DNA of 64,000 nt, from positions 186,001 to 250,000 of the forward strand of contig JAQUAB010000001.1 in assembly GCA_028687475.1 (NCBI GenBank), written 5' to 3'. The DNA is from Candidatus Gracilibacteria bacterium (GTDB lineage: Bacteria > Patescibacteriota > Gracilibacteria > BD1-5 > UBA2023). Numbering within the stretch: the stretch's first letter is position 1; every line of letters starts with the position of its first letter. This document shows, piece by piece, positions 54,234-59,641 of this stretch. The notes beneath the pieces are model-generated. The model did no database searches, was not told the origin of the DNA, and saw nothing but the letters and a program-made list of their open reading frames with translations. Position numbers and translations under genes: made by a program.

Positions 54234-55235
54234 ATGACTAATATCGTTGCTATCGGTGGTGGAGCTGGAACATTCAATGTTCTCTACGGAATCAAGCGAA
54301 ATCCAGAATTCAACATCTCAGCCATCATCTCCGTTGCAGACAATGGTGGAACTGCCGGACTCATTCGTGACAAATATGGTATCCTCCCTCCTGGAGATTT
54401 TCGCCGTGCTATCGCGGCACTGGCAGGAAATACAGAAATCGTGAGAAAACTTTTCGAATACAGTTTCAAGTGAGAAGAATGAGTCATCGGAAGTAATAAA
54501 ATCGGAAATATCCTCTTCACTGCTCTCACGGATATTTCTGGAGGAGATGTAGAAAAGGCTATCGATACTATGGGAGAAATGTTCGACGTTCGCGGACGTG
54601 TGATTCCTGTGACACTCGAGGATGTGAATCTTGCTGTTCGCTTCGAAGATGGAGCCGTCGTCGTGGGGGAGAAAAATATCGACGTCTCAGATAAAAACGT
54701 ATTCGAACGGTCACATAACATCGACCAGAATATCGTCGATGCTTGGCTCGAAGGTGCAGAAGGGAATCTCAATCCTCGTGCTCGTGAAGCTATCATGAAT
54801 GCTGACTATATCATCATCGGGCCTGGAGATCTCTATACGAGTATTGTCCCGAATCTTCTCTCTGTCGGAATGCGTGAGGCACTGAGCGCCAGTAGTGCAA
54901 AAATCATCTACATATGCAATGCGATGACAAAACGCGGTGAGACCACCAATATGGAAGTGATTGATTTTATCAATACGATCGAGAAATATATCGATCCAGG
55001 AAAGCTCAACTATGTCATCGTGAACAACGGCTATATCTCTGATGAAGTGGTCGAGAAATACCGTGCTGAGGAAAACAAGAAGCCTCTTAAAATCAAAGAT
55101 TATTCACTCTTTGAGAAAAAATGATATAAAATAATCGATCGTGACCTTGTACATACGAATGGTGATTATGTCCGTCACGATCCGGAAAAGCTCACAAAAA
55201 TCCTCGAAGACATCGTGGGTGGGTGGATAAAATAA
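54234..55235 (+). CDS. yvcK: YvcK/CofD-family protein
   Basis: 333 aa. VAIGGGAGTFNVLYGIK at the start, SVADNGGTAGLIRDKYGILPPGDFRRAIAAL, SNKIGNILFTAL, DYIIIGPGDLYTSIVPNLL and ICNAMTKRGETTN are hallmarks of YvcK, which binds UDP-sugars and links central carbon metabolism with cell-wall synthesis in Firmicutes. Three UGA-Gly codons, two close together (KGEEGVIGSNK). Preceded by TATAAT at 54182-54187. Confidence 0.93.
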
Positions 55236-55275
55236 TTATCTTTTGCCTATAATACAACATAAATCTGATTATTAA

Positions 55276-55300
55276 TCCTCTTCTTTTGGAGAAGAGGACA
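55276..55300 (+). terminator. hairpin after yvcK
   Basis: CCTCTTC, loop TTTTG, GAGAAGAGG; no clear T run. Confidence 0.45.
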
Positions 55301-55392
55301 TTGATATAGTCATACTTTATCATGTACTCTTTGGTGCATATTATAAGCATCTCTCTCCAACTTCTGGAATATATTTATACTATAACAAACAT

Positions 55393-55420
55393 AAAAAAGC
55401 CCCCTATGGTAAAGGGGCGC
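55393..55420 (-). terminator. terminator of the structured RNA
   Basis: GCGCCCC / GGGGGC hairpin followed by TTTTTT on the minus strand. Confidence 0.75.
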
Positions 55421-55735
55421 TAGCACCTCATTTTCTCATGGAAAATGAGGCAAGAAGAAGCTATACGGCTTAACTCGACCTAGATTCAGGCAAGCTAACT
55501 CGTAAAGTTCCTCACGATATGATATGTTTTGGTATTACGGGGAGGAGAGGGGTGTTTTTTAGGCAACCCCTCTCTCCTTGCCCTACCGTGCTGTCCTTCA
55601 GGACGGCGCGGAGCGGGCGACGGGTTGGGCGACGATGGCCATGTGAATCTCCTCGAAAAAGAAGAAGTGGATTTGCCCAATACTACAGGCAAGGTATAGC
55701 CTACAGAAGAAGAAGAAGAAGTCAAATTTTTTTCG
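55393..55735 (-). ncRNA. GC-rich structured RNA, unassigned
   Basis: The roughly 575-bp gap between yvcK and leuS holds a stretch clearly richer in G+C than its surroundings. On the minus strand: TTGACT near 55725 as possible -35, then hairpins TTGCC/GGCAA, CCGTCC-GA-AGGAC, a strong GAGAGGGG...CCCCTCTC stem (about 55549-55585), CCTCATTTTC-CATG-GAAAATGAGG (about 55424-55450), and a terminator GCGCCCCTTTACCATAGGGGGC with T run at 55399-55420. No coding frame on either strand looks real. I could not match it to RNase P, tmRNA, SRP or 6S RNA. Confidence 0.5.
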
Positions 55736-55762
55736 AAAATTCCTTATGTAATCTGGTATAGA

Positions 55763-55799
55763 AAAGATAAAATCCAGACGTATAATCTGGATTTTATCG
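55763..55799 (-). terminator. leuS terminator
   Basis: GATAAAATCCAGA pairs perfectly with TCTGGATTTTATC; TTTTC follows on the minus strand. Confidence 0.85.
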
Positions 55800-55810
55800 A
55801 TGAGTGGATG

Positions 55811-58800
55811 CTATTTCACCACAATCGACAGCATTTTATTCGGGATAAAGATTTCTTTTATGATTTCTTTTCCTTCGAGCCACTTCGCGATATTCTCATC
55901 AGCACGGACAACTTCTGAGACCTCTTCTTGTCCGACACCATTGAGAAATGTGAAGGTTCCACGGAGTTTTCCCCCGACCTGAACTGCAATCGTCACTTCA
56001 TCATCCACGAGCATGAATTCATCATATTCTGGCCAAGGAGCGTTATAAACGGATTCAAGATTCAATATTCAAGATTCAAGATTAGAAACATTGTCATTCT
56101 GAGCTTGCGAAGAATCTGCTCCGTTATTTTGAATTTTGAATTTTTCATTTTGAATCAGGAACCATAGTTCTTCTGCCATATGCGGTGCGAATGGATGAAG
56201 GAGAATCGCGAATGATTCTTTCCATTCAGTTTGGAACTCAGCATCCTGAGGAAGTCCTTCATTGAGGAGAATCTGGAGCGCAGAAATCGCTGTATTGAAC
56301 TTGTATTCGACAATATCCTCCCCGATTTTCTTGATCGTTTTATGGAGCTGTTTCATGGCTTTCATATCATCTTTTGCAGTATTCTTCCCTTCGAAGAACG
56401 TAGAATATGCCTTATCGAGGAGACGACGAACTCCGATAATCGAATCCGTACTCCACGGAGCCGTATCACGGAAATCTGCCATACTCATCTCATAGAGACG
56501 AAGCGAATCAGCACCATATTCGCGGACAATATCGTTCGGATTCACGACGTTTTTGAGAGATTTCGACATCTTCGCAACCACTTGTTTCACTTCTGTTCCT
56601 GTTGATTTTTCGAAATATTTCCCATCTCTTTCTTCGATGAGATCCACTGCAACGAGTCCACCATCCGCACGCTCATAGGCATACGCGAGAATCATCCCCT
56701 GATTCACGAGCTTCTGGAATGGTTCTTTCGTCGGAACAATACCAATATCATAGAGTACCTTGTGCCAGAATCGCGCATAGAGGAGATGAAGCACTGCATG
56801 TTCCGTTCCTCCGACGTATTCATCCACATTCTGCCAGTACTCAAGCGCTTCCTTGCTCGCGAGGGCGAGAGGATTCGCAGGATCCATATAGCGAAGATAG
56901 TACCAGCAACTTCCACCCCATTGTGGCATCGTGTTCGTCTCACGTTTTCCCATGAGATTCGTCGCGAGTTCTACATTCACGAAACTCTCTACGGTCGCAA
57001 GTGGCGATTGCCCATCCCCTGCTGGCTCATATTTCTCTACTTCTGGAAGCATAAGAGGCAGATTCGAGTCGATGATGATTTTCGAGTTAATACCATCATA
57101 GATCTTGGAATATATTTTTCAATCGATAACCAGGAATTCTTCTGAAAGTTCCCTCCCTGAAAAGGGAGGGTTAGGGTGGGTTACATAAGAGGAATCCTTA
57201 TTTAGTGTAACCCCCTCTGACTCCCCCTTGTCAAGGGGAGAATAGATACACGCTTCACCAGTTTTTGCATCCTTAAGTTTCTCTACTCTTGGTAACTTCA
57301 CATAATCCTCATGACTAATATGAATCAGTGGAATCGGTTCTCCCCAGTATCGTTGACGAGAAAAAAGCCAATCACGGAGCTTGTAGTTTACCTTTTTGCG
57401 ACCGAAGCCTTCGGATTCTGCTTTTTCAGAGAGAACTCGGCGAGCTTCTGCGGAAGTGAGTCAATTGAATCCAGAAGAATTCACAAGAATTCCATCTTCA
57501 GAAGTAGCCTTTGGAGAAAATGCATGCTTGATAGCAAAAGCGAAATTCTTGTGCAAATCAATACCAGTAAATTTTTCAAGAACCTCTTCTACAGAAAGCC
57601 ATTCCCAAGAAAAATCCTCATGCTCTTCCAAACTCATTTCAACTCGCGATTCATTGAGCAATTCAACAAGAAAAAAACTAGCCATTGCTTCTCTTTCCAC
57701 TTTTCTTACAGGAGCATGATGATTCATATGAAAACTACCAATGCACTCTTTTACTACAAAATTCTGAAAACCCGTTTCTTCTTTAATTTCTCTTGTAATA
57801 GCCGTGAGTATATCTTCACCTTCATCTACTCAACCACCTGGAAGGTCATAAAGATTTTCAAATTTATTGAATTTAAAAACAAGAATCTTTCCATCTTTTA
57901 CAATAAGTGCTTTTGTAAAATCTCGACGAACTGCATTTTGTTTTGGAACTCCAAGAACTGGTGCAACGCTTTGCTTGATAGGAAGACTATACCTCTTAGC
58001 AAAGGCAAAATCCCTCTCATCATGCGCTGGAACCGCCATCACTGCACCAGTACCGTAGTGACCGAGCACATAGTCCGCAATCCAGAGTGGAACCGTTTCT
58101 CCATTGAATGGATTCACGACATATGAGCCGGTGAAAACTCCGGTTTTTTCTTTTCCTTCGTTGGTTCTATCTTGATCCGAGCGACTCGCTGCCTCAGTGA
58201 TATACGCTTCACACTCTGCCGACTGTTCATCAGTGATGAAGTCATAGACACGAGGATGATCCGGCGCAAGTACAGCATAAGTCATTCCATAAACCGTGTC
58301 GACACGAGTGGTGTAAACTTCGATGGATGGAAGGATTTTATTTAAGAAAAGATTATGTGTGGCACTGTCTCGGTCATTAAAATGTCCTGCACTCTCGATA
58401 TCAAAATGGGTTACTCAGATGTCATCAAAATGCTTTTTAGCCTCAGAATAAGTAATATATGGGTCATTCTTTGATAAGAATATTTGCCAGTCATTAACAT
58501 TTCCACGGATTTTATCTGGATGATATTGTGTTTTCATTGTACGAGAACCAATGTCCCATGATACTTCTGACATGCTCGCACTCCAATCAACAGAGTCAAT
58601 AAGCCCATTGAATACTGGAGCAACACAAATAAGTTTACCAATCTTTTTTTCAAGTCTCTCCACAAAATGCATCCCGAGAAATCATCCCATAGAATGCCCT
58701 ATCACAAGGGAATCTTGATTCATCTTTGATTTATATTGATCAAGGAATGCTAATTGTTTTTCTAAATCTGGTTGGGTTGGATTGGGTAAACTCGGCATAA

Positions 58801-59641
58801 TTACTTCATATCCAATATCTTCAAGTTCCTTCTTGAGCCCTGTTTGCCAAGCATGAAAATGAACGGAAGTGGTTCATTCATCTTCCCATCCATGAAGGAT
58901 AAGAGCAAGTGGCTTTCATTCTACTTTTTTCATCATCCGAAACTCACACCCCTCACTCTTCCCTATCCAATTGCGTTGCATCTCTTTCACGCCCTCTGGC
59001 CAATCGAGTCCATCGAGATCTTCGATGAGTCGATCTGCATATTCGGTAATTTTCAAAACCCACTGACGAAGTGCGCGCTTCTCGACGCGAGTGCCACAAC
59101 GATCACAGGTATTGTCAGCGAGGACTTCTTCATTCGCAAGTCCCGTCTTACAACTCGGACAATAGTTGATCGGCAGATCCTGTTCATATGCGAGTCCGCG
59201 CTTGAAGAGCTCGAGAAAAATCCACTGTGTCCATTGGTAATATTTCGGATCGGTCGTATCAATCTCGCGACTCCAATCATAGGAAAATCCGAGAGACTGA
59301 AGTTGCTCCTTAAAAATAGCAATATTCGCGGCGGTCGTCACAGCTGGATGAGTACCAGTCTTGATAGCATAGTTCTCAGCGGGAAGCCCGAAAGCATCCC
59401 AACCCATCGTATGGAGAACATTGTATCCCTTCGCATGATAAAAACGCGAGACAATATCGGTCGCTGCATACCCCTTCGGATGCCCGACATGAAGTCCAGA
59501 TCCTGATGGATAAGGGAACATATCGAGGATGTATTTCTTGGGTTTTTGTATATCAAATGGTGGATTCTTCGTCTGGAAAGTCTGGTTTTCTTCCCAAAAT
59601 TTTTGCCATTTCTGTTCGAGTTCGGTATGATTGTACGGCAT
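55811..59641 (-). CDS. leuS: leucyl-tRNA synthetase with inserted serine hydrolase and Nudix domains
   Basis: 1276 aa in one frame (usual 810-880). Core: HIGH-type motif [11 protein letters not shown], zinc-type [18 protein letters not shown]; editing segments [21 protein letters not shown] and [44 protein letters not shown]; anticodon domain to TAG 55811. Inserts: residues about 242-442, RBBP9/YdeN-like alpha/beta hydrolase ([38 protein letters not shown]); about 572-705, Nudix ([26 protein letters not shown]); about 793-823, translated palindrome; near 1165-1195, translated AT-rich repeat. Eight UGA-Gly codons, four in the hydrolase insert. All core motifs intact. Confidence 0.92.
56052..56150. 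repeat. AT-rich and TGTCATTC repeats inside leuS
   Basis: Contains short repeats of ATTCAAGATTCAA type, a partial TTGTCATTCTGAGC element near 56092-56121, and TGAATTTTGAATTTTTC. Translated as NEKFKIQN and NLESGILNLES just before [12 protein letters not shown]. Similar AT strings are intergenic at 6020-6050. Confidence 0.7.
57148..57242. repeat. palindromic repeat inserted in leuS
   Basis: Nested inverted repeat: CCCTCCCTGAAAAGGGAGGG, then GGGTTACA and its inverse TGTAACCC, then CCCCCTTGTCAAGGGG. Translated in frame as [10 protein letters not shown] and [10 protein letters not shown]. Confidence 0.8.

Follow-up and report, generated by a model that had tools for sequence, protein, structure and literature searches.

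A candidate lineage-restricted structured RNA between yvcK and leuS in Gracilibacteria

Related systems and the yvcK-leuS spacer

Bacterial small RNAs with C-rich seeds, such as the Rsa RNAs of S. aureus and SgrS, are trans-acting or dual-function RNAs. The element described here would resemble them as a stand-alone intergenic transcript, with an exposed C-rich single strand between stable hairpins, a terminator and a possible short ORF. It differs from them, however, in that it has no match to an Rfam covariance model and that the genes of its host genome rarely use Shine-Dalgarno sites. It also recalls integron gene cassettes (an ORF plus a structured attC), since at one site a variable ORF is followed by a conserved structured end; unlike a cassette, the element is present in single copy, has no integrase beside it, and folds into a structure that needs the G-U pairs of the RNA strand. 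Searches of the literature and of Rfam returned no described small RNA of Gracilibacteria.

Searches with Rfam (release 15) gave no match at the gathering threshold in the window, i.e. the whole 64-kb stretch of DNA that was analyzed, and only noise at E <= 10 between positions 54900 and 56200. The Rfam/Infernal scan proposed in an earlier note on this DNA thus assigned the element to no known RNA. Weak matches to Phe_leader, the L20 leader and a miRNA were at noise level, below gathering, and were rejected. The first of these (RF01859) scored 22.4 bits against the minus-strand terminator region (gathering 55, E 0.58), where no downstream minus-strand gene is available for attenuation, and reflects a chance likeness between terminators. 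The copy of the element in a relative from another genus matches a Betaproteobacteria toxic small RNA (RF02278) below threshold, with 33.6 bits where gathering requires 50 (E 1.7e-5), across the short hairpin and the terminator, but the window copy has no such match, and the similarity consists of a UCUCCU stretch and a generic hairpin and terminator, not of the linker or the long hairpin described below.

The host genome (G000) measures 1.06 Mb and reads TGA as glycine (code 25); the window lies on its contig C1. The element sits inside a spacer of 575 bp that separates two convergent genes, both read in code 25: a yvcK/CofD-family gene on the plus strand (54234-55235) and leuS on the minus strand (55811-59641). 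We propose a minus-strand transcription unit at 55393-55725, whose limits are a -35-like TTGACT and an intrinsic terminator, and whose strand was assigned from the folding asymmetry and from the homologue in the relative. A bidirectional terminator of leuS (and yvcK) at 55766-55798, acting on both strands, is read as ancestral on the basis of three relatives (loci L043, L044 and L046) whose spacers of 44-76 nt hold little beyond a terminator. The ends of the spacer insert (55236-55262 and 55744-55770) form an imperfect inverted repeat of 27 nt, complementary at 19 of 27 positions, a value reached by 16 of 2000 shuffles.

The neighboring leuS has features of its own. It encodes a protein of 1276 aa in which two domains, a serine hydrolase (Pfam Ser_hydrolase; residues 247-423) and a NUDIX domain (residues 582-690), are inserted around and in the editing region; a NUDIX-like ORF occupies the yvcK-leuS spacer in two relatives, as compared to the NUDIX domain inside LeuS here. 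Palindromic repeat-like inserts, in frame and resembling small dispersed repeats, are found in leuS at 57150-57245 and 56050-56160 (AGGGAGGG...CCCTCTGACTCCCCCTTGTCAAGGGG; GTCATTCTGAGCTTGCGAAGAATCTG), and the hairpin at 57146 is among the strongest in 464 kb of the host genome.

The high local GC content reported in the earlier note was confirmed: the stretch 55393-55735 has 48% GC versus 40% for the window, and over 60 nt the content peaks at 73% (55557-55664), the maximum for the 64 kb. This peak, however, lies 5' of the conserved module, in a part that is not conserved. Within the extent originally noted (55393-55735), the conserved RNA module is confined to 55549-55397 on the minus strand.

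Folding of the element and its homologue in a second genus

When compared to dinucleotide shuffles, 55393-55735 was the top folding locus among 366 window-strand tests over the 64 kb, with a free energy of -121.1 kcal/mol and a z-score of -4.9 on the minus strand (-3.7 on the plus strand), which bears out the several strong hairpins predicted from the sequence. The difference between strands is concentrated in the 3' block (55520-55393), with -52.5 kcal/mol and z -5.7 on the minus strand versus -37.3 kcal/mol and z -2.9 on the plus strand, and is most marked in the 62-nt region of the long hairpin described below (-24.2 kcal/mol, z -4.55 versus -12.1 kcal/mol, z -1.17). G-U pairs that exist on the minus strand only are its main source in both cases. 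The copy in the other genus displays the same asymmetry (z -6.0 versus -4.1, and -4.2 versus -0.8 for its upstream hairpin). Since the asymmetry rests largely on these minus-only G-U pairs, the structure appears to have been selected as a minus-strand RNA rather than as a DNA palindrome; modeled folding in both genomes thus argues for selection at the RNA level. The GC-rich block towards the 5' end (55540-55640) folds as well or better on the plus strand (z -4.2, versus -3.8 on the minus strand), and the GC-rich hairpin within the non-conserved 5' part (55585-55625, minus strand) also folds better as a plus-strand RNA.

The relative in another genus (G023; spacer loci L042 and L106, contig G023:C129) carries a yvcK-leuS spacer of 803 nt. 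Plain alignment of the two spacers did not yield significant similarity, their local alignment score being attained by 3 of 216 chunks of the window and by 33 of 734 other chunks, and structure was therefore tested. A covariance model (R1) was derived solely from the window sequence and run against 585 kb, which included 400 kb of the host genome (20 sample stretches of 20 kb) and the loci of relatives. The structured tail of the G023 spacer scored 33.4 bits with it (E 3.6e-7), and the runner-up 16.0 bits (E 0.043). Conversely, a model built from G023 alone identified window positions 55549-55397 with 37.3 bits (E 7.2e-6), followed by a match of 17.5 bits, the antisense of its own hairpin set aside; calibration of both models was rough, and these E-values are to be read as orders of magnitude only. 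The two copies are thus reciprocal best matches in the 585 kb, and the only clear match to the module outside the window is the syntenic spacer of a distantly related genome from another genus, at the same locus, in the same orientation and with the same architecture.

The conserved module (55397-55549, minus strand; covariance models R1/R2; homologue at L106:8483-8632) is approximately 155 nt long in the window and consists of the 3' arm of a GC-rich hairpin ending in CCUCCC, a linker, hairpins and a terminator. From 5' to 3', both copies present a strong hairpin that ends in CCUCCC, an unpaired UWAUACCAAAAYAUAU, a hairpin of 57-60 nt with a central 2x2 internal loop, a short hairpin, and a terminator with a 7-bp stem and a 6-nt loop. 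In the window, all on the minus strand, the strong hairpin occupies 55538-55580 and its 3' arm ends in CUCCUCCCC, with a strong hairpin ending in CCUCCC at the same place in G023. The long hairpin (55454-55513) has 24 bp and the same shape in G023, and the short one (55425-55451; 11 bp) also has a counterpart there. The terminator (55393-55418) carries a run of six U residues, and its geometry is identical in G023.

The yvcK-leuS spacers of relatives, which the earlier note had suggested aligning in search of covariation, indeed provided compensatory changes, all with G023. In an alignment fitted to the model, 96% of the cells were paired, and 16 of 42 pairs had changed on both sides and yet were kept; none of 500 shuffles reached the real value, and structures slid along the alignment paired at 39-49%. 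A MAFFT alignment made without reference to structure and analyzed with RNAalifold led to the same three helices; of their 28 pairs, 11 were doubly changed. These counts rest on two sequences, only about half identical, whose relatedness can inflate them, and the first alignment (A3) is fitted to the structure.

The 11-16 compensatory pairs also bear on chance as an explanation, namely a GC-rich insertion with hairpins and a terminator-like sequence whose similarity to G023 is coincidental. The plain alignment scores reached by other chunks speak for coincidence, as does the fact that several spacers were inspected before the G023 match was noticed; nevertheless, the compensatory pairs, together with a window-only model and its reciprocal that both place the syntenic partner far ahead of any other match in 585 kb, make this account very improbable. 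As paired base changes preserve the hairpins in a second genome, at the corresponding chromosomal position, the element is very probably a real RNA.

Transcription signals, the possible upstream ORF and the linker

A terminator had been predicted from the sequence, and a minus-strand intrinsic terminator with U6 is indeed present at 55418-55399; an intrinsic terminator closes the 3' end of both copies. The possible minus-strand promoter fared less well. The -35-like TTGACT (55720-55725, minus strand) is a weak candidate with no good -10, the hexamer at the right spacing being TAGGCT (3/6 matches), and a consensus promoter scan found none on the minus strand between 55600 and 55790 and several on the plus strand. 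In G023, the corresponding TTGACT-16-TATTAT matches the consensus at 10 of 12 positions. Three plus-strand promoter-like sites are located just after yvcK, at 55224-55344 (best TGGATA-18-TATAAT), and would drive an RNA antisense to the element.

The earlier note saw no credible ORF, which holds in part: among the six frames (code 25), none displays coding-like codon usage except for a trivial Glu-rich run, and Pfam searches of the window frames returned nothing convincing, the best sub-threshold match being Cas6b_N (15.9 bits, cut-off 25). A protein gene or pseudogene was rejected on these grounds and for lack of significant similarity to the spacer ORFs of relatives. An ORF of 19 codons on the minus strand (55583-55642; MAIVAQPVARSAPSGRTAR, TGA=Gly) is, however, preceded by a Shine-Dalgarno-like GAGGAG (55649-55654) located 6 nt before the ATG, and it ends in a TAG stop just before the strong hairpin. 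As judged from its sequence, translation of this ORF is possible. The corresponding position in G023 has TGGAGA, and the presence of such a site in both members is notable because none of the window's 30 gene starts is preceded by a well-spaced GGAG. The G023 unit, which is oriented as in the window, consists of the leuS terminator, the promoter, the Shine-Dalgarno TGGAGA, a GC-rich ORF of 126 aa, the structured tail, its terminator and the yvcK terminator. The 126-aa ORF (L042:865-1245, plus strand) has 62% GC in a contig of 36% GC, a signal-peptide-like start and a low-complexity acidic body; no homologue was found in Pfam, plasmids, viral contigs or the other loci analyzed, and it shares no sequence with the 19-codon ORF.

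The main rival to an independent regulatory RNA comes from this arrangement. The module could be the structured 3' UTR of a small protein gene, 126 aa long in G023 and shrunken to 19 codons here, whose hairpins and terminator simply end and stabilize the mRNA without any regulatory target. We regard this as a possible but doubtful reading. The conserved structure lies wholly 3' of the ORF, and in both copies a Shine-Dalgarno-like site unusual for the genome goes with a TAG stop shortly ahead of the first hairpin, as such an mRNA would have it. On the other hand, the RNA module was kept while the two ORFs have no sequence in common and one is six times as long as the other, the G023 ORF is compositionally foreign to its contig and lacks a detectable homologue, and a terminator or stabilizer has no need of a conserved unpaired linker.

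This linker (55522-55545, minus strand), CCTCCC-NN-TWATACCAAAAYATAT, reads CCUCCC-NN-UWAUACCAAAAYAUAU as RNA. It is predicted to be mostly unpaired in both genomes, with unpaired probabilities of 0.76-0.80 versus means of 0.35-0.41 for the two full transcripts, and is a candidate base-pairing seed. In its plus-strand reading, the 23-nt motif TATRTTTTGGTATWANNGGGAGG occurs free of mismatches in the host genome and G023 only, among 77 genomes of the order. Viral contigs hold 29 loci with the bare linker motif, but they were rejected as members as their model scores were at noise level.

Distribution and proposed role

A joint covariance model (R2) placed the element in 2 of 386 genomes, the host and G023, in a first look that scored seven candidates per listed genome and in which members may have been missed; in both genomes it is single copy. 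A plain DNA search with the element gave no convincing match in 58 other genomes, and apparent DNA homologues in relatives, phages, plasmids and viral contigs were rejected as AT- or GAA-rich or short chance matches. A structurally similar region upstream of a terminator in the host genome (C5:60.1 kb) was also rejected: the models do not match it, and it forms the leader of a methyltransferase-like ORF. This structured leader (L131:38-180; C5:60038-60180) contains TTTTGGCG/GCCAAAAC repeats and precedes a DNA-methyltransferase-like ORF. The nearest relatives keep the convergence of yvcK, itself present in 54 of the 59 genomes in which it was sought, and leuS, but the content of the spacer varies: two (L041 and L047) carry a NUDIX hydrolase gene there and others carry other ORFs. 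The element is absent from this spacer in four other species of the genus of G023. Since it was found in 2 of 386 genomes and is missing at the locus in these congeners, whereas a plain DNA search with the RNase P RNA of the host, used as a control, succeeded in 54 of 59 genomes (its own included), the element is lineage-restricted. From the sequences, with copies only about half identical, it would most simply be old and repeatedly lost.

Other origins are less likely than the mRNA discussed above. A non-autonomous mobile or captured element could have settled in a tolerant convergent spacer, with hairpins that act at the DNA level as recombination or transposition ends. The spacer does behave as an insertion spot, holding a bare terminator in some relatives and, in the rest, a NUDIX gene or different ORFs, the insert ends are complementary at 19 of 27 positions (16/2000 shuffles), and the cargo is GC-rich and foreign-looking. 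Yet each of the two genomes holds one copy, unlike a MITE-like element, no transposase or integrase lies beside it, the copies are strongly diverged, unlike the products of recent mobility, and the strand-specific dependence of the folds on G-U pairs in both genomes favors RNA. We thus consider a mobile origin unlikely.

The suggestion of the earlier note that the element might be a divergent housekeeping RNA, such as SRP RNA, 6S, RNase P or tmRNA, has hardly any probability left. It draws on size and structure and on the SRP RNA, for which neither RF00169 nor RF01854 has a match in the host genome (96% complete), although control genomes do match; RF01854 (large SRP) is also without a match above cut-off in 20 relatives. 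The SRP RNA of the host is either very divergent or lost. However, tmRNA (RF00023) and RNase P RNA (RF00010) are encoded elsewhere in the genome, at C3:35270-35691 and C3:108552-108950, no Rfam model of these families, SRP included, matches the element at E <= 10 (54900-56200), and an RNA confined to 2 of 386 genomes and absent at the locus in sister species contrasts with a housekeeping control found in 54 of 59. The other proposal, a new class, stands in a modest sense only, as a new RNA family supported by the absence of an Rfam match, minus-specific folding, a syntenic homologue and compensatory changes. By kind the element is a bacterial intergenic structured RNA that is new as a family and not in Rfam.

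We favor, as the probable reading, a real, lineage-restricted minus-strand RNA gene in the yvcK/leuS spacer, whose module would be the 3' portion of a small, independent transcript and whose linker may pair with targets. This transcript would measure approximately 300-330 nt in the window and approximately 680 nt in G023, and would also carry an ORF, short or of foreign appearance, behind an unusual Shine-Dalgarno. The stable hairpins and the terminator may protect the RNA, while the exposed linker might pair with target mRNAs, CCUCCC being directed towards Shine-Dalgarno-type G-rich sites and the CCAAAA part possibly conferring specificity; the element may in this manner work as a trans-acting or dual-function small RNA. 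Based on the predicted structures, action through the conserved unpaired linker as a base-pairing regulator is the most likely mode. A more speculative proposal, which we hold to be rather improbable as a whole, would make the element a new RNA class, a dual-function transcript of code-25 Gracilibacteria. In it, a fixed chromosomal site would join a conserved structured 3' regulatory module to a small ORF that looks foreign and can be exchanged, and translation of the ORF and the C-rich linker would be coupled via the unusual Shine-Dalgarno.

Gracilibacteria, a lineage of the candidate phyla, have genomes of approximately 1 Mb in which a stop codon is recoded. An RNA supported by compensatory changes at a defined locus offers a testable entry to RNA regulation in these organisms, and metagenomes can be screened with its covariance model for further members.
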